Assembly (NCBI GenBank): GCA_002699025.1
Contig: PABA01000106.1
Coordinates: 1 to 55,289, forward strand
Reading direction: 5' to 3'
Origin: Sandaracinus sp.
GTDB lineage: Bacteria; Myxococcota_A; Polyangia; Polyangiales; Houyiibacteriaceae
DNA length: 55,289 nt
Under the pieces are notes generated by a model, which saw only the letters and a program-made list of their open reading frames with translations, searched no databases and was not told the origin of the DNA. Positions 27,866 through 38,664 of this stretch are shown piece after piece; the stretch's first letter is position 1; each line of letters opens with the position of its first letter. Made by a program: the position numbers and the translations under genes.

Positions 27866-28615
27866 TCAGCCCATGGCTCCGCCGCCGTCGACGTCGATCG
27901 TGCGCCCCGAGAAGTAGTCGCACTCGCAGACGAACTTCACGGCCTGCCAGATGTCCTCGGGCGTGCCGATGCGGCCGAGCGGGATGGAGGCGACGAGCGC
28001 GTCCCGGGCGCTCTGCTTCATGCCCTCGGTCATCGGGGTCTCGATCATGCCGGGGGCGACGGCGCCCACGCGGATGCCGTAGGGCGCGAGCTCGCGCATC
28101 CAGGTCGTCGTGTTCGCGGCGAGGGCGGCCTTGGCGGCGACGTAGTTCGTCTGCCCGCGGCTGCCGTGCCGGGCGATGCTCGAGATGTTCACGATCACGC
28201 CGGGCTTCGTCTCGCTCTCGATCATCTGCCCGGCGACCTCGCGCACCATCAGCGTCGCGCCGACCAGGTTCACGTCGAGCACCGAGGTGAGCTGCTCGAG
28301 CGGCATCTTCTTCAGCTCGCCGGTGCGGCGGCTCTTCTTCACCAGGAGCCCGTCCCGGATGATGCCCGCGTTGTTGATGAGGCCGTTCAGGCCGCCCATG
28401 GCCTCGGCGGCCCAGCCCACGAACGCCTGGCAGTCCTCCTCGGAGGACACGTCGAGCCGGCGGGTGTGGATGCCCTCCGGCAGCGCCGCGAGGCCCTCCT
28501 CGTTCACGTCGCCCACGGCCACCTCCGCGCCGGCCTCGTGCAGCCGCTTCGCGAAGTGCGCGCCCATGCCGGACGCGCCGCCCGTGACGATGATCTTCAG
28601 CTCCTCGAGTCTCAT
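27866..28615 (-). CDS. Short-chain dehydrogenase/reductase, possible 3-oxoacyl-CoA reductase of the PHA pathway
   Basis: A 249-residue classical SDR with the cofactor motif TGGASGMG (11-18), NNAG (81-84), the catalytic Ser145/146, Tyr158 and Lys162, and the usual C-terminal SGRTIDVDGG. An insert (VKKSRRTGELKKMP) after NNAGIIRDGL is typical of a subgroup of FabG-like enzymes. Its position 88 nt after a phasin-like gene and two genes from phaR suggests that it supplies (R)-3-hydroxyacyl-CoA for polymer synthesis, as PhaB does. No beta-ketothiolase is present in the window, so the precursor route is incomplete here. The cofactor (NADPH or NADH) is not clear: Asp36 at the end of beta-2 favours NAD(H). 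Confidence 0.87.
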   Translation of the reverse strand: MRLEELKIIVTGGASGMGAHFAKRLHEAGAEVAVGDVNEEGLAALPEGIHTRRLDVSSEEDCQAFVGWAAEAMGGLNGLINNAGIIRDGLLVKKSRRTGELKKMPLEQLTSVLDVNLVGATLMVREVAGQMIESETKPGVIVNISSIARHGSRGQTNYVAAKAALAANTTTWMRELAPYGIRVGAVAPGMIETPMTEGMKQSARDALVASIPLGRIGTPEDIWQAVKFVCECDYFSGRTIDVDGGGAMG

Positions 28616-29038: not shown

Positions 29039-29066
29039 AAGATAAGCCGCCCCCCGGACCTGTCAA
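29039..29066 (-). promoter_or_regulatory. Sigma-70-type promoter of the phasin-like gene
   Basis: On the minus strand TTGACA (29066-29061) is followed after 16 nt by TATCTT (29044-29039). The predicted transcript start is about 50 nt before the ATG at 28982. The dyad at 29075-29089 ends 8 bp before the -35 box. Confidence 0.75.
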
Positions 29067-29074
29067 TCGAAAAA

Positions 29075-29089
29075 TGTTGCGCCGCACAA
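29075..29089. promoter_or_regulatory. Candidate PhaR operator at the phasin promoter
   Basis: TGTTGCGCCGCACAA is a near-palindrome. Its reverse complement matches the dyad at 29719-29733 in 13 of 15 positions, and it sits at the same 8-bp distance from a TTGACA box. PhaR repressors of other bacteria bind TGC/GCA-rich dyads at phaP and phaR promoters. Confidence 0.68.
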
Positions 29090-29091
29090 AA

Positions 29092-29661
29092 TCAGTCGTC
29101 GCCGTTCGTGGCCGGGCCCTTGCCCAGGGCCTCCTTCAGCGCCTCGAGCTCGGCCCGGAGCGCGGCCACGTCGCCGGCGCTCGCGGCCTCCTCCGGCGGC
29201 GGCTCGGGCGCGGCTCGGGGAGCCGGCTCGACGCCGGGCGGCTGCATGCCCGGCATGTTCCAGGGCCCGAAGCCGCTCATCATCCGGGCGAGCGCGTTGG
29301 TGGCCTGAAAGGGCGCGCCGGCGAAGGGGACGAAGGGGCTGAGCTGCGAGGCGCCGCGCTTCGCCGTCTGGTACACCTCGAGGGCCCAGGACATGTATTT
29401 TCCGAGGAATTCCGCGAGATCCTCCTCCTGCATGCGGATGAGCTGGGCGAGGAGGGGCGCCGGCAGGAGCTTCCCCGCGCCGCGGCTCTCGAGGATGATC
29501 TGGGCGAGCGTCTGCTGGGTCAGATCGTCGCCGCTCTTGGCGTCCACGACCCGCACGTCGAAGCCCTCGCGGACCCGCTCGGCGAGCTCGTCGAGCGTGA
29601 TGTAGCGGCTCTGGTCCGTGTCGTAGAGGCGCCGGTTGCTGTACTTCTTGACGACGATCAC
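29092..29661 (-). CDS. phaR: PhaR-type polyhydroxyalkanoate synthesis repressor
   Basis: A 189-residue protein with the PHA/PHB accumulation regulator DNA-binding domain at the very N-terminus: IVVKKYSNRRLYDTDQSRYI, then TLDELAERVREG and VVDAKSGDDLTQQTLAQIIL. A regulatory region follows (LLAQLIRMQEEDLAEFLGKYMSW). The C-terminus is Pro/Glu-rich with a short coiled coil. In known systems PhaR binds nascent polymer granules and is thereby released from the phasin promoter. The GTG at 29661 gives the family's usual start. A longer frame from 29748 would run through the dyad operator and is not credible. The gene is divergent from the PHA-envelope operon and is followed by the phasin-like and reductase genes. 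Confidence 0.92.
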   Translation of the reverse strand: MIVVKKYSNRRLYDTDQSRYITLDELAERVREGFDVRVVDAKSGDDLTQQTLAQIILESRGAGKLLPAPLLAQLIRMQEEDLAEFLGKYMSWALEVYQTAKRGASQLSPFVPFAGAPFQATNALARMMSGFGPWNMPGMQPPGVEPAPRAAPEPPPEEAASAGDVAALRAELEALKEALGKGPATNGDD

Positions 29662-29718
29662 CTGGTCCCCGTAGCGCAGGGCGAAGGGCGAGGGCAAGGC
29701 GGGCGGTGCGCTTTGTTG

Positions 29719-29733
29719 TTGTGCGGCGCACAA
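29719..29733. promoter_or_regulatory. Candidate PhaR operator between phaR and the PHA operon
   Basis: TTGTGCGGCGCACAA is a perfect 7-1-7 palindrome. It lies 58 bp upstream of the phaR GTG and 8 bp before the -35 box of the rightward promoter, so one site could control both directions. Confidence 0.72.
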
Positions 29734-29741
29734 AATCGCGC

Positions 29742-29770
29742 TTGACACCCCGCGGGCTGCCCGCTAGACC
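29742..29770 (+). promoter_or_regulatory. Promoter of the rightward PHA/envelope operon
   Basis: TTGACA (29742-29747), a 17-nt spacer and TAGACC (29765-29770). The -35 box is perfect and the -10 box partial. Transcription should begin near 29777, leaving a leader of about 128 nt before the first gene at 29905. Confidence 0.68.
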
Positions 29771-29807: not shown

Positions 29808-29822
29808 TGTTGCGACGCAGCA
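29808..29822. promoter_or_regulatory. Third, weaker PhaR-type dyad in the operon leader
   Basis: TGTTGCGACGCAGCA matches the phasin operator in 12 of 15 positions and is itself nearly palindromic. It lies about 30-45 nt into the predicted leader, where a bound repressor could act as a roadblock or help looping. Confidence 0.4.
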
Positions 29823-29904: not shown

Positions 29905-30891
29905 ATGCGGGGTTTCCAGAGCGGAGTGAGCGCAGCCGTGCTGCTGGTCGGCCTGATGGGCTGTGTGGTCGGCGGCTGCGCGGCCAGCGGCGGAGCGGAG
30001 TGCAGCGTGGGCGCCGACTGCGCCTCGGGCGTCTGCCAGTCCAACGGCCGCTGCCTCCCGCTCGCGGAGGACGGAGGCCTGCCTCCGGCCGACGGGGCGC
30101 CGAGCGGGGACGCCGCCTCGGAAGACGCCGCGACACCCGACGCCGGCCCGGCGAGCGACGCCGGCGCACGCGACGCGGGGGGCGCGGGCTGCGTGCCGAA
30201 CGGGGACGGCGTGATCCGCCGCGAGGAGGTGCCGCTCATGGCCGGCCTCCGGGCGACCTTCCGGGTGGCGACGGACGTCACGGTCGACATGGCGGGCGAG
30301 GTGCTCCCCGACGGGCGGCGCCGCTGGGACCTCTCCGGACCGCTCGAGGGGGATCGCGACGTGCTCGTCGACCTTCGCGACCCGGCCGGCGCCTGGTACG
30401 CCGAGGACTTCCCGGAGGCGACCTACGTCACCGAGCTGAGCGCGACGGAGGAGCTGCTCGGCGTCTTCCAGGTCGGCGGCTCGGCCCTGCGCCTGCTCGG
30501 CGTGGTCTCCCCGGACGACGGCTTCACGCGGACGCGGCTCGAGAACGACCCGGCGGTCGACGTGCTCGCCTTCCCCTTGGAGGTGGGCGAGCGCTGGACC
30601 AGCGAGCCGAGCGTCAGCGGCCTCGCCCTCGGCGCCATCACCGCCTACTCCGAGGACTACGTCTCGGAGGTCGACGCGGCCGGCGAGCTCGTCACCCCCT
30701 TCGGCACCACCTTCGAGGTGCTCCGCGTGCGCACGGAGCTCGAGCGCACGGTGGGCCTGCTGACGACGACGGTCCGCACCTTCGCCTTCGTGAGCGAGTG
30801 CTTCGGCACGGTCGCCACGGTCACCAGCGAGGACGACGAGGACCAGGTCGAGTTCTCGCGCGCCGCCGAGGTCCGGAGGCTCGCCCCATGA
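29905..30891 (+). CDS. Lipoprotein of unknown function, first gene of the PHA/envelope operon
   Basis: A 328-residue lipoprotein: signal MRGFQSGVSAAVLLVGLMGC with a lipobox Cys20 or Cys25. A short Cys-rich segment follows (CSVGADCASGVCQSNGRC), then an Asp/Ala/Gly linker with DAG motifs, then an all-beta domain of about 230 residues. That domain starts GCVPNGDGVIRREEVP and ends with CFGTVATV and AAEVRRLAP. It is a paralogue of the lipoprotein at 33568, sharing the CVPNxDGxIxxEE start and the ECFGxVAxxT end. I do not recognise the domain. An EF-hand-like NGDGVIRREE sequence opens it. The ATG at 29905 is followed by a normal signal peptide. The stop overlaps the next start (ATGA). Confidence 0.85.
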   Translation: MRGFQSGVSAAVLLVGLMGCVVGGCAASGGAECSVGADCASGVCQSNGRCLPLAEDGGLPPADGAPSGDAASEDAATPDAGPASDAGARDAGGAGCVPNGDGVIRREEVPLMAGLRATFRVATDVTVDMAGEVLPDGRRRWDLSGPLEGDRDVLVDLRDPAGAWYAEDFPEATYVTELSATEELLGVFQVGGSALRLLGVVSPDDGFTRTRLENDPAVDVLAFPLEVGERWTSEPSVSGLALGAITAYSEDYVSEVDAAGELVTPFGTTFEVLRVRTELERTVGLLTTTVRTFAFVSECFGTVATVTSEDDEDQVEFSRAAEVRRLAP

Positions 30892-31943
30892 ACCGCCGCG
30901 TCCCCATCGCGGCGCCGCTCGCGCTCGCGTGTCTCCTCGGCGGCTGCCTGAGCTGGCATGCGGGCGCGCCCGCCGAGCCGCCGGAGGAGGGCGCCTTCGC
31001 CACGCTCCGCGGCACGCGCGTGCACTTCGTGGACGAGGGCGAGCCGGGCCAGCCGGCGGTCGTGCTCGTGCACGGCTTCGCCAGCAGCGTGGGGGTCTGG
31101 GCGGGGCTCCGGCCGGCGCTCCGGGAGGCCGGCTACCGCGTGCTCGCCCTCGACCTGAAGGGCTTCGGACACACGGGCCGGCCGGCGCCGGAGGGCGAGC
31201 GGGACTACTCGCCGGCGGAGCAGGCGCGCATCGTGCGCGCGCTGATGGACGCGCGCGGCGTGCACCGGGCGGCCGTGGTCGCGCACTCCTACGGCTCGAG
31301 CGTCGCGCTCCGCCTGGCCCTCGACGCGCCGGAGCGGGTCAGCCACATCGCCCTCTACGACGCCTGGGTCTACGCGGACCAGCTGCCCACGTCCTTCCAC
31401 TGGGCGCGCGCGGGGGGCGTCGGCGAGCTGATCTTCGCGGCCTTCTACCAGGAGCGCTCCGAGGACAAGATCGCCAACGCCTTCTACGACCCGGAGGTCA
31501 TCCCCCAGGCGCTCGTCGACACGGTCGAGGAGCAGGTCTCGCGACCCGGCACGCGGGCGGCCGCCCTCGCCGCCGTGCGCGCCATGCGCTACGAGGCGCA
31601 GGAGGCGCGCTACGGGGAGGTCGAGGCGCCGACGCTGCTCCTCTGGGGGCGCGAGGACTCGGTCACGACCCTCGACTTCGGCGAGCGGCTCTACACCGAG
31701 CTGCCGAACGCCGAGCTGAAGGTCTACCCGCGCTGCGGTCACTTCCCGATGATCGAGGCGCGCCGGCCGAGCACCCGCGATCTGCTCGCCTTCCTCGCGG
31801 CCCATGGCCGGCAGCCGGCGCCCGCCTCGCCCACCGCCGCCGAGCGCGCGCCGTCCCTCCCGCCCGAGGGCGCGCCGGGCGCCGCCGACGGGGCCGTCGA
31901 CGCCGCCGACGCCGACGCCGCTGCCGAGGAGCCCGACGCATGA
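30888..31943 (+). CDS. Lipoprotein alpha/beta hydrolase
   Basis: A 351-residue lipoprotein (lipobox LLGGC, Cys20) with a complete alpha/beta hydrolase domain: VLVHGFASS oxyanion region, nucleophile Ser in VVAHSYGSS, acidic residue in LLWGREDSVT, and His in CGHFPMIE. The last 45 residues are Ala/Asp/Glu-rich and disordered. The nearest relatives in pattern are esterases/lipases of the haloalkane-dehalogenase-like group. Anchored outside the cytoplasm and encoded in a PHA operon, it may cleave esters such as extracellular hydroxyalkanoate oligomers, which is inference. Starts and stops overlap by 4 nt with both neighbours. Confidence 0.88.
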   Translation: MNRRVPIAAPLALACLLGGCLSWHAGAPAEPPEEGAFATLRGTRVHFVDEGEPGQPAVVLVHGFASSVGVWAGLRPALREAGYRVLALDLKGFGHTGRPAPEGERDYSPAEQARIVRALMDARGVHRAAVVAHSYGSSVALRLALDAPERVSHIALYDAWVYADQLPTSFHWARAGGVGELIFAAFYQERSEDKIANAFYDPEVIPQALVDTVEEQVSRPGTRAAALAAVRAMRYEAQEARYGEVEAPTLLLWGREDSVTTLDFGERLYTELPNAELKVYPRCGHFPMIEARRPSTRDLLAFLAAHGRQPAPASPTAAERAPSLPPEGAPGAADGAVDAADADAAAEEPDA

Positions 31944-33559
31944 GCCGCGCGCTGCCCATCGCGGCCCTGTCGTTCGCGGCCCTCTCGCTCGCGGCCCTCG
32001 CCGCGCCGCCCCGCGCCGCCGCCTCCGGCTTCACGGACATCGGCCAGGACATCGAGTCCGAGGGCGAGACCGTCGTGCGCCTCCACGGCGCGCTCCGCAC
32101 CCGCTTCGAGCTCCTCTACAACCTCGACCTCGACCGCGGCCTGAGCCCCGACGGCGCGCCCCTCTTCCCGGTCCCCCTCTCGGACCCGAGCGCGCAGCTC
32201 CTCACGCACGCCGACATGCGCCTGCGCACGGACCTCGCCCTCTACGTCCCCTCGGCGTCGATGGCGATCAAGCTCCGCATCGACACGCTCGACAACCTCA
32301 GCCTCGGCAGCCAGCCGGACGGCGTCCCCTCGGTCGCCGTGAGCCAGCGCCCCGCCGAGACGCCCTTCGTGATCCGCCGCGCCTACGGGGAGGTGCTCAC
32401 CCCCTTCGGCCTGCTCGCGGTCGGGCGCATGGGCAACGAGTGGGGCCTCGGCATGCTCGCGAACGGGGGCGACTGCGCCGACTGCGACTCGGGGGACGCC
32501 GCCGATCGGATCCTCTTCTCGACGCCCGTGCTCGGCCACGTCTGGGCCTTCGCCTTCGATCTCACGGCCACCGGCCCCTACGTGCCGCGGAACGCGCCGA
32601 ACCGCGGGATCGACCTCGACCCCTGGGACGACGTGCGCACCTTCACGGCCGCCGTGCTCGACTTCCACACGGACGTCGCCCGGCGGCGCCGCGCGCGGGC
32701 AGGGCGCATCAGCTTCGAGTACGGCGCCTACGTCTCGCACCGCTGGCAGAACGGCGACGTGCCCGCGCACTACCTCCCGGCGGCCCAGCCCGTGGGCATC
32801 ACGCGCGCGCAGAGCGTCGGGCGCGACTTCCGGGCCACGGCCGTGGACGCCTGGGCGCGGCTCACCCTCCCGGCCGGGCGCGTGGAGCTCGAGGCGGCCT
32901 ACCTCACGGCGCGCATCGGCCAGCCGAGCCTGATCCCCGGCGTGGAGCTGGACGACGCGCTCACGTCGCGGCAGGTCGGCGCCGCCCTCGAGACCGAGTT
33001 CGGGCCGGACCACGCCCTCGGGACGGGGCGCTGGGCGGCGGGCCTCGACGCGGGCTTCGCGAGCGGCGACCCGGCGCCGGGCTTCGGCGCGCTCCTCGGC
33101 GCGAACGACCGGGGCCCGAACGCGCCGCCGGCGCAGCCCGGCGACCTCGATGGTCCGCAGGCGGCGCCGCCCTTCGACACCACCGTCGACAACTTCCGCT
33201 TCCACCCGGACTACCGCATCGACCGGATCCTCTTCCGCGAGATCGTCGGCACGGTCACGGACGCCATCTACCTCCGCCCCCACGCCCGCGTCACCCTCGC
33301 CCAGGTCGGCCCCGGGCGCCTCGACGCCTCGCTCGCCGTCATCGCGAGCTGGGCCGCCGAGCCCTCGTCGACGCCGAACGGCGAGCGCACGCTCGGCCTC
33401 GAGCTCGACCCGACGCTCGCCTACGTCACCCGCGACGGCTTCCTCTTCGCCGCCGAGTACGCCTTCTTCCTGCCCGGCGCCGCCTTCGACAACGCGGCCG
33501 CCGGCCTCTCCGCCAAGCCGGCCCAGCTCATGCGCTTCCGGCTGGGGTTCATGTACTGA
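31940..33559 (+). CDS. Outer-membrane beta-barrel protein (TIGR04551-like)
   Basis: A 539-residue exported protein with a signal peptide ending near AAASG. It consists of amphipathic beta-strands ending in an aromatic C-terminal strand (MRFRLGFMY), which is a typical outer-membrane insertion signal. The segment HGALRTRFELLYNLDLDRGL, the following PDGAPLFPVPL, and RIDTLDNLSLGSQPDG are what I recall of the myxobacterial TIGR04551 family, whose function is unknown. CADCDSG in a loop might form a disulphide. In this operon it could be a channel for hydrophobic acids or oligomers used for PHA synthesis, but nothing in the sequence proves a substrate. Translation is coupled to the hydrolase gene. 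Confidence 0.85.
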   Translation: MSRALPIAALSFAALSLAALAAPPRAAASGFTDIGQDIESEGETVVRLHGALRTRFELLYNLDLDRGLSPDGAPLFPVPLSDPSAQLLTHADMRLRTDLALYVPSASMAIKLRIDTLDNLSLGSQPDGVPSVAVSQRPAETPFVIRRAYGEVLTPFGLLAVGRMGNEWGLGMLANGGDCADCDSGDAADRILFSTPVLGHVWAFAFDLTATGPYVPRNAPNRGIDLDPWDDVRTFTAAVLDFHTDVARRRRARAGRISFEYGAYVSHRWQNGDVPAHYLPAAQPVGITRAQSVGRDFRATAVDAWARLTLPAGRVELEAAYLTARIGQPSLIPGVELDDALTSRQVGAALETEFGPDHALGTGRWAAGLDAGFASGDPAPGFGALLGANDRGPNAPPAQPGDLDGPQAAPPFDTTVDNFRFHPDYRIDRILFREIVGTVTDAIYLRPHARVTLAQVGPGRLDASLAVIASWAAEPSSTPNGERTLGLELDPTLAYVTRDGFLFAAEYAFFLPGAAFDNAAAGLSAKPAQLMRFRLGFMY

Positions 33560-33567
33560 GGATCGAG

Positions 33568-34545
33568 ATGGACCACGTCCCGTGCCCATGCCCGTGCCCA
33601 TGCCCGTGCCCGCAGAGCGGGGAGGCGGCCGGGCGTGTCTCGAGCTCCCCTTGGGCGCCCGGGGGCGTCTCGCCTTCGAAGGACGGTCTCGCTGCCCCCT
33701 CGAAGCTTCCGGCTGGGGCATGGGGCTTCGTCGCCGCGTTGCTGCTCCTCGCGGCCTGCTCCGAGAACCAGACCTTCCCCATGCGCGAGCCCTACCGCCC
33801 CGGCGACCCGGGCCCGCTCGACTGCGTGCCCAACCTCGACGGGCGCATCGACTCCGAGGAGCTCGCCCCCGCGCTCGGCGTCCCCGTCTCCCTCCTCGTG
33901 AACCCGGTCGGCACCACCCGCGAGGTCGACCTCGTCGGCCAGGTGATCGACGAGCGCCGCGTCTGGGACCAGGGCGCCGACTACGCCGACGACCAGCTCG
34001 CGCGCATCGAGGCGAGCGAGCTCGAGGGCTGGTGGTTCGCCGACCGCTTCCCCGGCGCCGAGTTCGTCGCGCCCCTCGACCCGGCCGGCCAGAGCGTCGG
34101 CGTCTACGTGCACGACGAGGCCGCCCTCTTCCTCCTCGGCGTCGCCTCCGCCAGCGAGGACCCGCCCGAGGGTCGGACGCTCCTCGTCTACGACGACCCG
34201 ATCGCCCTCTACCGCTTCCCCATGGAGCCGGGCGCGAGCCACGTGAGCGCGAGCGACATCCGCGACGGCGTCCTCCGCGGCCTCCCCTACGCCGGCCGCG
34301 ACGTCTACGAGGTCCAGGTCGTCAGCGCCGGGCGCCTCGAGCTCCCCGACCTCAGCTTCACGCAGGCGATGCGCGTCGACGTCCGCACGACCGTCTCGCC
34401 CGCCGCCGGCGCCCCCGTGGTGCAGCGCCAGTCGAGCTTCCTCTTCGAGTGCTTCGGCGAGGTCGCCCGCGCCACGGCCCCCATGGGCACCGACACCTTG
34501 GATTTCACGACCGCCGCCGAGCTGCGGCGTTTCTCTCTGGAGTGA
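33568..34545 (+). CDS. Lipoprotein of unknown function, paralogue of the operon's first gene, with a repeat-derived N-terminus
   Basis: A 325-residue protein. Its domain (about residues 88-325) matches the lipoprotein at 29905: DCVPNLDGRIDSEELAP at the start, FLFECFGEVARATAP and AAELRRFSLE at the end. A lipobox follows a hydrophobic run (WGFVAALLLLAAC), but about 50 residues precede it. These include PCPCPCPCPCP encoded by CCCGTG/CCCATG hexamers and a Ser/Pro/Gly stretch. No in-frame ATG or GTG lies between, and a good ribosome site (AGGATCGAG) precedes the ATG at 33568. The N-region thus seems to have been enlarged by repeat DNA. Whether export still works is open. It lies 8 nt after the barrel gene and 4 nt before the PhaE-like gene. 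Confidence 0.82.
   Translation: MDHVPCPCPCPCPCPQSGEAAGRVSSSPWAPGGVSPSKDGLAAPSKLPAGAWGFVAALLLLAACSENQTFPMREPYRPGDPGPLDCVPNLDGRIDSEELAPALGVPVSLLVNPVGTTREVDLVGQVIDERRVWDQGADYADDQLARIEASELEGWWFADRFPGAEFVAPLDPAGQSVGVYVHDEAALFLLGVASASEDPPEGRTLLVYDDPIALYRFPMEPGASHVSASDIRDGVLRGLPYAGRDVYEVQVVSAGRLELPDLSFTQAMRVDVRTTVSPAAGAPVVQRQSSFLFECFGEVARATAPMGTDTLDFTTAAELRRFSLE
33579..33608. repeat. CCCGTG/CCCATG hexamer repeat inside a lipoprotein gene
   Basis: Five alternating hexamers, in frame, encode Pro-Cys repeats. The same hexamer family opens both copies of the dispersed repeat (2681-2716 and from 54652). The length is a multiple of three, so copy changes would not shift the frame. Confidence 0.85.
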
Positions 34546-34549
34546 GCCG

Positions 34550-34863
34550 ATGTTCGAAGAAGGATGGAAAGTCTGGAAGAGGGGCTACGACGCCTGGGAG
34601 GCCCAGGCGAACCAGGTCTTCGAGGCCTGGCTGAAGAGCCCGCTGATGCTGACCCCCGCCGGCGCGATGATGAGCGCCTGGCTGAAGGCGCGCGCCCAGC
34701 GCGAGAAGGCCATGGGCGTCTGGTGGTCCTCGATGGGCCTGCCGACCCGCGCGGATCAGGACCGCACGCTCCACGCGCTGAACGACCTGCAGAGCCGCCT
34801 CATCGACCTCGAGGATCAGCTCCACGATCTGCGCGCCGAGCAGCCGCCGAAGGGGGGCCGCTG

Positions 34864-34864
<1 letters not shown>
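34550..34864 (+). CDS. Small PhaE-like subunit of the class III PHA synthase
   Basis: A 104-residue soluble protein. It is Trp-rich at the start ([20 protein letters not shown]), followed by a hydrophobic middle ([16 protein letters not shown]) and a C-terminal coiled coil ([32 protein letters not shown]). The coiled coil resembles the end of PhaE, where LPTRxDxD precedes a coiled coil that contacts PhaC. PhaE proteins are usually over 300 residues, so this would be a minimal form. It is separated from phaC by the acyl-CoA ligase gene, and its stop overlaps the ligase start. The ribosome site GGAGTGA is 4-5 nt from the ATG. The assignment is by motif and context. Confidence 0.72.
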
Positions 34865-36588
<1,724 letters not shown>

Positions 36589-36607: not shown

Positions 36608-37663
36608 ATGCTGAAGGCCCTCTCGAACCTCACGCGCCTCGTGCAGCGCCCGAAGCCCGCCGTGGGCCGGACGCCGCACGACGTGGTGCACCGCGAGAAC
36701 AAGTGGCGCCTGCTCCGCTTCCGCGGGCCGGCCCCGCGCCGCTACCGCACGCCCATCCTCATGGTGCCCTCGCTGATCAACCGCTGGTACGTGCTCGACC
36801 TGATGCCCGGGAAGAGCTTCATCGAGTGGCTGGTCGACCAGGGGCACGACGTCTACTGCATCGACTGGGGCAACCCCGGGCGCGAGGACCGCTACCTGCG
36901 CTTCGACGACATCGTCGGGCGCTACCTCGGGCGCGCGCTCCGGCGCACCTGCGAGGCGAGCGGCGTGGAGAAGGCGCACGTGCTCGGCTACTGCATGGGC
37001 GGCACGCTCGCGGCGATCCACGCGGCCGCGCACCCCGAGCGGGTGGCCAGCCTGACCGGGCTCGCGGCGCCCGTGGCCTTCGACGACGACGGGATCCTCG
37101 CCCGCTGGACGAAGTCGAAGAGCTTCGACGTGGGCGCGCTCGTCGACGCCTTCGGCAACGTGCCCTGGCCCCTGCTCCAGGCGAGCTTCCAGTGGCTGAG
37201 GCCGACGCTGAACCTCTCCAAGGCCGTCTTCCTCGTGGACCGCGCCGTGCTCGACCGCGCCTGGAACGACGAGTTCCTGGACGGATTCCTCGCCAAGGAG
37301 CGCTGGGCCAACGACAACGTCTCGCTCCCGGGCGAGATGTACCGGCGCTACATCGAGGACCTCTACCAGCAGAACCGGCTGGTGAAGGGGACCTTCCGGC
37401 TCGACGGGCGGCCGGCGCGGCTCGAGGCGATCACCTGCCCGGTGCACGTGCTGAGCTTCCAGCACGACTACATCGTGCCGGAGGAGAGCGCGTCGCCGCT
37501 GGCGGAGAAGGTGAGCTCGAAGGACGTGACGCACCTGCGCCTGCCCGGGGGGCACGTGGGGGCGGTCGTGAGCGGGAGCGCGCGGAAGCGGCTCTGGCCG
37601 CTCCTCAGCTCCTGGTGGGCGGAGCGCGATGGAGGGCGCCCCCTCGAGGTCGCGGCCGAGTGA
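36608..37663 (+). CDS. phaC: Class III polyhydroxyalkanoate synthase, catalytic subunit
   Basis: A 351-residue PHA synthase that polymerises (R)-3-hydroxyacyl-CoA. The lipase-like box is GYCMGG with nucleophile Cys129. Asp287 in FQHDYIVP and His316 in PGGHVGAVVSG complete the triad. PSLINRWYVLDLMPGKSFIE and VYCIDWGNPGREDRYL are hallmark segments. The length matches class III PhaC (about 355 residues), which needs a PhaE partner, and the small PhaE-like protein two genes upstream fits that. The gene begins 19 nt after the ligase stop and its own stop overlaps the GTG of the next gene. The protein is cytoplasmic and granule-bound. Confidence 0.95.
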   Translation: MLKALSNLTRLVQRPKPAVGRTPHDVVHRENKWRLLRFRGPAPRRYRTPILMVPSLINRWYVLDLMPGKSFIEWLVDQGHDVYCIDWGNPGREDRYLRFDDIVGRYLGRALRRTCEASGVEKAHVLGYCMGGTLAAIHAAAHPERVASLTGLAAPVAFDDDGILARWTKSKSFDVGALVDAFGNVPWPLLQASFQWLRPTLNLSKAVFLVDRAVLDRAWNDEFLDGFLAKERWANDNVSLPGEMYRRYIEDLYQQNRLVKGTFRLDGRPARLEAITCPVHVLSFQHDYIVPEESASPLAEKVSSKDVTHLRLPGGHVGAVVSGSARKRLWPLLSSWWAERDGGRPLEVAAE

Positions 37664-38664
37664 GCGCGGCGCTCCGGCTCGCGGCGCCCGTCGCGTTCGC
37701 GCTCGGCTGCACGGGCGGCGGCGGGATCGTGGCCGTCGATGGGGGCGCCGGAGGCGACGCCCGGATCGCTCCGGATGGGGCCGTCGCGGACGCGGCGCTC
37801 GCGGTCGACGCGGAGCTCGCTGTCGACGCCGCGCCAGGAGACGACGCCGGATCCACGAACGACGCCGGGCTCGCGCTCGACGCGGCCGCGCCCACCGACG
37901 CCGGCGAGGCGCTCTCCCGCTGCTCCGAGGACGAGGGGCGCGTCGTCTGCCCGCGCAACACGACGCGGCTCGTCGCCGCCGGGATCGGCCGGGACGTCCA
38001 CTGGCAGCTCCCGCTCGGCGCCGCGCCGGAGGCCGGCTGGCCGTCCGTCATCCTCTTCCAGGGCAGCCTCTTCGCGGCGGGCTTCGCCTGGGTCGGCGCC
38101 CCCGGCGCTCCCTTCGGCGCCGAGCACCAGGCCGCGCTGATCCGCGCGCTCCTCGACGCGGGCTTCGCCGTGCTCACGCCCGAGGTCCGAGGGGAGGGCA
38201 GCACCTACTGGGACACGAACGTGGCCCCCTGGAACGTCGCCTGGGATAGCTCCCCGGACCACGCCTTGATGCGCGACCTCTTCGCGGAGATGGAGGCCGG
38301 CCGCTTCGGTCCGCTCGACCTCGGCCGGCTCTACGCGACGGGCATCTCGAGCGGCGGCTACATGACGAGCCGCATGGCCGTGAGCTACCGCGGCCGCTTC
38401 CGCGCCCTCGCCATCCAGAGCGGGAGCTACGCGACCTGCGCGGGGGCGGCCTGCGTCGTGCCGGCGCTCCCCGAGGACCACCCGCCGACCCTCTTCCTCC
38501 ATGGGGCCCTCGACGCCATCGTCCCGGAGGCCACCATGCGCCCCTACGCGCGCGCCCTGGACGAGCTCGGCGTGCCGAACGAGGTGCGCGTCGACCCCGC
38601 CGTCGACCACGCCTGGCTCCCGGAGGCGCCGGCGCGCGTGACCGCCTTCTTCCGCGCCCACTGA
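37660..38664 (+). CDS. Secreted lipoprotein esterase, PHB depolymerase/LpqC-like
   Basis: A 334-residue lipoprotein (lipobox FALGC, about residue 17) with a Gly/Asp/Ala linker to about residue 85, then an alpha/beta hydrolase domain. That domain has ILFQGSLF, the lipase box GISSGGYMTSRM, LFLHGALDAIVPE (acidic residue) and VDHAWLPE (His). The pattern is that of extracellular poly(3-hydroxybutyrate) depolymerases and related feruloyl-esterase-like proteins. A Cys pair (TCAGAACVVP) probably forms a disulphide. The GTG start overlaps the phaC stop (GTGA), so it is the last gene of the PHA operon. An exported depolymerase-like enzyme beside a synthase implies scavenging of outside polyester rather than mobilising the cell's own granules. 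Confidence 0.87.
   Translation: MSAALRLAAPVAFALGCTGGGGIVAVDGGAGGDARIAPDGAVADAALAVDAELAVDAAPGDDAGSTNDAGLALDAAAPTDAGEALSRCSEDEGRVVCPRNTTRLVAAGIGRDVHWQLPLGAAPEAGWPSVILFQGSLFAAGFAWVGAPGAPFGAEHQAALIRALLDAGFAVLTPEVRGEGSTYWDTNVAPWNVAWDSSPDHALMRDLFAEMEAGRFGPLDLGRLYATGISSGGYMTSRMAVSYRGRFRALAIQSGSYATCAGAACVVPALPEDHPPTLFLHGALDAIVPEATMRPYARALDELGVPNEVRVDPAVDHAWLPEAPARVTAFFRAH

Follow-up and report, generated by a model that had tools for sequence, protein, structure and literature searches.

The window analysed here, a stretch of 55,289 nucleotides from Sandaracinus sp., carries a phaR gene flanked by two promoters of the same design, one serving a phasin-like gene and the other a PHA synthase operon. 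In both, a TGCRNYGCA-type dyad stands directly upstream of a TTGACA box. The best overall explanation, and one that we consider likely, is that these dyads are PhaR operators and that the repression of both units is lifted when PhaR is titrated by polymer granules. The features of the locus are listed in the table.

Table. Features of the phaR locus, in window coordinates
Feature	Position	Strand	Remarks
phaB-like short-chain reductase	27866..28615	-	PF13561; reductase families below equivalog cut-offs
Phasin-like gene, 92 aa	28704..28982	-	relatives keep it between phaR and phaB
Predicted phasin promoter	TTGACA 29066-29061, 16-nt spacer, TATCTT 29044-29039	-	consensus match
Dyad, phasin promoter	TTGTGCGGCGCAACA 29089-29075	-	centre ~-51 from predicted transcription start
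phaR	29092..29661	-	start GTG 29661 by conservation; PF07879 E 2.6e-27; open frame reaches 29748
Likely phaR -10, TACGGG	29668..29673	-	conserved GCGCTA(C/G) context; inferred from relatives
Dyad, rightward promoter	TTGTGCGGCGCACAA 29719-29733	+	centre ~-51 from predicted start; read from sequence
Predicted rightward promoter	TTGACA 29742-29747, 17-nt spacer, TAGACC 29765-29770	+	consensus match
Second operon dyad	TGTTGCGACGCAGCA 29808-29822	+	5' leader, about +32 to +46
Lipoprotein 1	29905..30891	+	no Pfam family; model weakly YmcC/GfcB-like
Alpha/beta hydrolase, lipoprotein-like signal	30888..31943	+	
Outer-membrane beta-barrel	31940..33559	+	TIGR04551 family, porin-like fold
Lipoprotein 2	33568..34545	+	related to lipoprotein 1; true start perhaps further in
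Short PhaE-like subunit	34550..34864	+	PF09712 above Pfam cut-off; TIGR01834 below cut-off
AMP-forming acyl-CoA ligase	34864..36588	+	PF00501
Class III-like PHA synthase PhaC	36608..37663	+	PF07167 above Pfam cut-off; TIGR01836 E 3.5e-85, below cut-off; PHA synthase nucleophile box GYCMGG read directly

Direct reading of both strands gave the same distance of 8 nt between dyad and TTGACA at the two promoters, as the original prediction had stated, and the 58 bp that it counted from the edge of the rightward dyad to the start of phaR proved correct for the GTG codon, a start backed by the relatives. Both dyads named in that prediction are present; the phasin-side palindrome is nevertheless imperfect (TTGTGC/GCAACA), and the third site, in the leader of the rightward operon, had been missed. 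The palindromic core TGC-RNY-GCA is found at all three sites. No second dyad was detected around or after the predicted start at the phasin promoter, whereas the operon promoter has the one in its leader. At each promoter the dyad centre lies beside the -35 box, over the region contacted by the polymerase alpha subunit.

The identical spacing had also been judged unlikely to arise by chance, and this judgement is borne out by the counts. The design pattern matched twice in the window and in none of 60 first-order Markov simulations of it, and the proposed genome search for the dyad plus 8 nt plus TTGACA returned two matches in the 9.24-Mb genome, both at this locus, as against none for the reversed pattern. 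The consensus TKNTGCRNYGCANMA occurs at eight sites genome-wide (three here, four at contig C77 and one elsewhere), its reversed control giving no match in the same 9.24 Mb, and the exact 12-mer TTGTGCGGCGCA exists in four copies, two here and two at C77. Allowing one arm mismatch yielded 56 sites against 42 for the reversed control; this looser motif is mostly noise, and the RNY centre was therefore demanded in later scans. The four dyads of C77 lie with a gene pair (L071, 1777-4091) coding for a KAS-III-like protein and an alpha/beta hydrolase, where a promoter with TAGATC has its -35 region overlapped by twin dyads 20 bp apart. Similar twin dyads stand before an apparently related gene within the phaR cluster of two relatives (L054, at 11128, and L056, at 11409). 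The KAS-III-like gene product may supply acetoacetyl-CoA to PhaB.

Orthologs of phaR were identified in the order, and the comparison covers 17 of their loci; these come from several families but, with close relatives among them, are not entirely independent. They contain 39 dyads of the form TKKTGC-N3-GCAMMA, as against 0-3 for each of the other spacers between 0 and 12, and the centre of the dyad is mostly RNY, in agreement with the published motif. When TTGAC was searched up to 65 nt downstream in these loci, it was found 7-10 nt after the dyad in 21 of 22 cases, mostly at 8 or 9, for an expectation of 0.045 per distance. Among the dyad-bearing relatives sampled, the layout is mostly kept and the letters of the dyad vary inside the consensus; in the genomes of 57 relatives the design was matched 22 times, and its reversed form once. 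Another TGCRNYGCA is present within 200 bp after the -35 box at 10 of 24 such promoters, that of the window operon included, for about 0.07 expected per promoter. By our count, 11 of the 17 relatives have the design at the promoter on the synthase side, and 11 have it on the side of the phasin or phaB, which indicates that PhaR sites before the synthase operon are conserved with or without intervening surface genes.

Over the phylum, 60 of 282 Myxococcota genomes contain the design. It is present in 47 of the 70 genomes with a strong phaR match (E-value 1e-20, a threshold of our own choice), the other 23 being devoid of the strict form, and in only 13 of the 212 without such a match (Fisher p 2.5e-24). 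The outcome is similar at a phaR threshold of about 1e-30, with 38/51 against 22/231. Across GTDB species genomes, the strict design was detected in at least 119 stretches; the matches listed comprise many from Rhodocyclaceae, Burkholderiales, Desulfobacterota and Alphaproteobacteria, and among those listed outside the order, 40 of the 72 ORFs downstream of design sites belong to Phasin_2. This proportion points to a common PhaR-phasin promoter layout.

The original prediction placed three units under PhaR. The comparison supports this for the phasin and the rightward operon, which have the dyads in common, but the case is weaker for phaR itself. The gene is linked to phasin, reductase and synthase genes, and the N-terminal DNA-binding domain of its product matches PF07879 at 95.1 bits (cut-off 25). 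The C-terminal domain (PF05233, 20.2 bits for a cut-off of 27) and the equivalog TIGR01848 (100 bits for a cut-off of 109.45) remain below threshold, which makes granule sensing by this protein uncertain. A sequence search of the PDB did not find a solved PhaR relative. The same genome encodes, elsewhere (C218:47103-47432), another protein that carries the DNA-binding domain of PhaR and is of a kind widespread in the phylum.

In several relatives the start codon of phaR is preceded at 6-12 nt by the motif GCGCTA(C/G) (29661-29680 of the window, minus strand), so close that the phaR mRNA may be leaderless. Such a -10-like box just before the GTG would set the rightward dyad near -65 for phaR. 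In several relatives, L054 and L056 among them, a second dyad covers the phaR -35, a copy that is missing from the window. Because of this conserved box and this missing copy, autocontrol of phaR through the rightward dyad is rated, on the sequence, as less certain than control of the two other units. That control by PhaR is confined to the rightward operon and the phasin, without autoregulation of phaR through this dyad, is accordingly a serious possibility, which we place somewhat short of an even chance: PhaR systems are widely autoregulated, and the distance to the phaR promoter could be bridged by RNA polymerase or by loops.

In the repression model that we favor, PhaR would occupy both 15-bp dyads and hinder RNA polymerase when little polymer is present, and its binding would keep the phasin-phaB unit and the lipoprotein-to-phaC operon low. 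The formation of granules would titrate PhaR, and both units would rise in concert. The leader dyad would probably reinforce this control, as do the downstream sites of R. eutropha phaP1. We infer that PhaR binds in Sandaracinus, that granules titrate it and where transcription starts; the sign of control is likewise presumed, since PhaR also activates elsewhere (PMC12849132). Repression appears likelier than activation by analogy, because published cases with such a placement are repressed and because -35 boxes so close to consensus hardly suggest dependence on an activator. Activation by PhaR bound to these same dyads, touching the alpha subunit from -51, seems unlikely. It would agree with a distance of 7-10 nt to the -35 held across the order, as for polymerase contacts, with the activation of R. 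eutropha phaP3 by PhaR from sites upstream of the promoter (PMC12849132) and with some Bradyrhizobium genes that are probably activated as well. However, PhaR represses phaP1 in both R. eutropha and Bradyrhizobium from sites just upstream of the -35 box, this box is near-consensus here and often accompanied by TATAAT in the wider sample, and the leader dyads fit repression.

PhaR is very likely the regulator acting on the dyads, to judge from their letters and neighborhood. The consensus is TGCRNYGCASMA in Bradyrhizobium (PMC6201568) and YTKNTGCRNYGCANMAR in Ralstonia (PMC12849132), and the Herbaspirillum motif is TG[N]TGC[N]3GCAA (PMC3206438); the window dyads fit these published consensuses with their TGCRNYGCA core, the phasin-side TTGTGCGGCGCAACA fitting TGCRNYGCASMA when read on the plus strand. 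What comparison shows is the existence of the site, its spacing and conservation, and its association with phaR. Another regulator, merely encoded in the same genomes, could be imagined as the owner of the dyads in view of the 13 design-bearing genomes that have no strong match to phaR, although some of these hits are expected by chance. This reading is very improbable and was rejected: the dyads are identical in motif to footprinted PhaR sites and physically linked to phaR, and no PhaR-type dyads were found at the phaR-paralog loci of relatives or at the paralog locus of this genome (L072). Coincidence, or recent duplication of one promoter, to which the 12-mer TTGTGCGGCGCA common to the phasin and rightward dyads might point, can be dismissed almost entirely, in view of the reversed controls, the fixed spacer, the co-occurrence of the design with phaR, the different letters between and around the elements at the two promoters, and the conservation of the layout in most sampled dyad-bearing relatives, whose dyad letters vary.

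The unit called the surface-gene operon in the original prediction does contain surface genes, but the label is incomplete: since PhaE, an acyl-CoA ligase and PhaC are encoded in the same operon, it is a PHA synthase operon. Its genes overlap or stand closely spaced. The order lipoprotein-hydrolase-barrel-lipoprotein-phaE-ligase-phaC recurs beside phaR in relatives, some of these clusters being cut by contig ends; in other relatives it is phaE that faces phaR first, and L063 and L068 have their surface genes on the opposite side. A structure model of the TIGR04551 barrel, of mean pLDDT only 66, suggests an outer-membrane barrel of the porin or AlgE type, and a literature search on this family returned nothing. 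Within the surface module (29905-34545), related lipoproteins flank the lipoprotein hydrolase and the barrel, and a second such set lies beside phaR in L058, L063 and L068. Downstream of phaC comes a gene for a secreted hydrolase-like protein (37666-38664, Peptidase_S9/dienelactone hydrolase-like), perhaps also a member of the operon. On the other side, phaB probably follows the phasin-like gene as one unit; the 92-aa protein has no match among the Pfam phasin families.

We tentatively propose that in these myxobacteria PhaR controls a single transcript from which the PHA synthase is made along with two related lipoproteins, a lipoprotein hydrolase and a porin-like barrel; this would tie the state of the granules to the cell surface. 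If this is true, polymer synthesis would be switched together with steps at the outer membrane in which a related compound is taken up, exported or degraded. Carbon storage and the cell surface may thus be linked. The rule derived here, a TGCRNYGCA dyad followed after 7-10 nt by TTGAC, offers a finder of PhaR targets for unstudied genomes.

Among the closest published likenesses is R. eutropha phaP1, with its PhaR sites BS1 and BS2 and repressed by PhaR, in which a footprinted palindromic TGCRNYGCA lies directly upstream of the sigma-70 -35 box, with more sites downstream (PMC12849132, PMC3206438). The window differs in that the primary downstream site at the transcription start is absent or shifted to about +39, and in that the design is also used at a PHA synthase operon. 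In B. diazoefficiens, PhaR represses phaP1, which has the footprinted sites TGCGACGCACAA and TGCGTCGCACAA, one of them 6 bp upstream of the -35 box, in a comparable position, and the other 6 bp downstream of it, where the window has none (PMC6201568). In the PhaR (AniA) regulon of S. meliloti a similar palindrome, with a YGCRNYGCR core and arms rich in AT, flanks the -35 of phaP1 and phaP2, but the synthase gene phbC is neither bound nor regulated by PhaR there (PMC12542648), unlike the Sandaracinus arrangement, in which the granule regulator would govern a PHA synthase along with conserved genes of the outer membrane. PhbF, the PhaR homologue of H. seropedicae, binds its motif at the phaP1, phbF and synthase-gene promoters, although an outer-membrane module is not reported in the PhbF-regulated operons (PMC3206438). 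The promoter architecture is thus already known, and the Sandaracinus sites are new members of it; what is new is the extension to Myxococcota of a layout footprinted in Beta- and Alphaproteobacteria, and its use at a synthase operon with outer-membrane genes.
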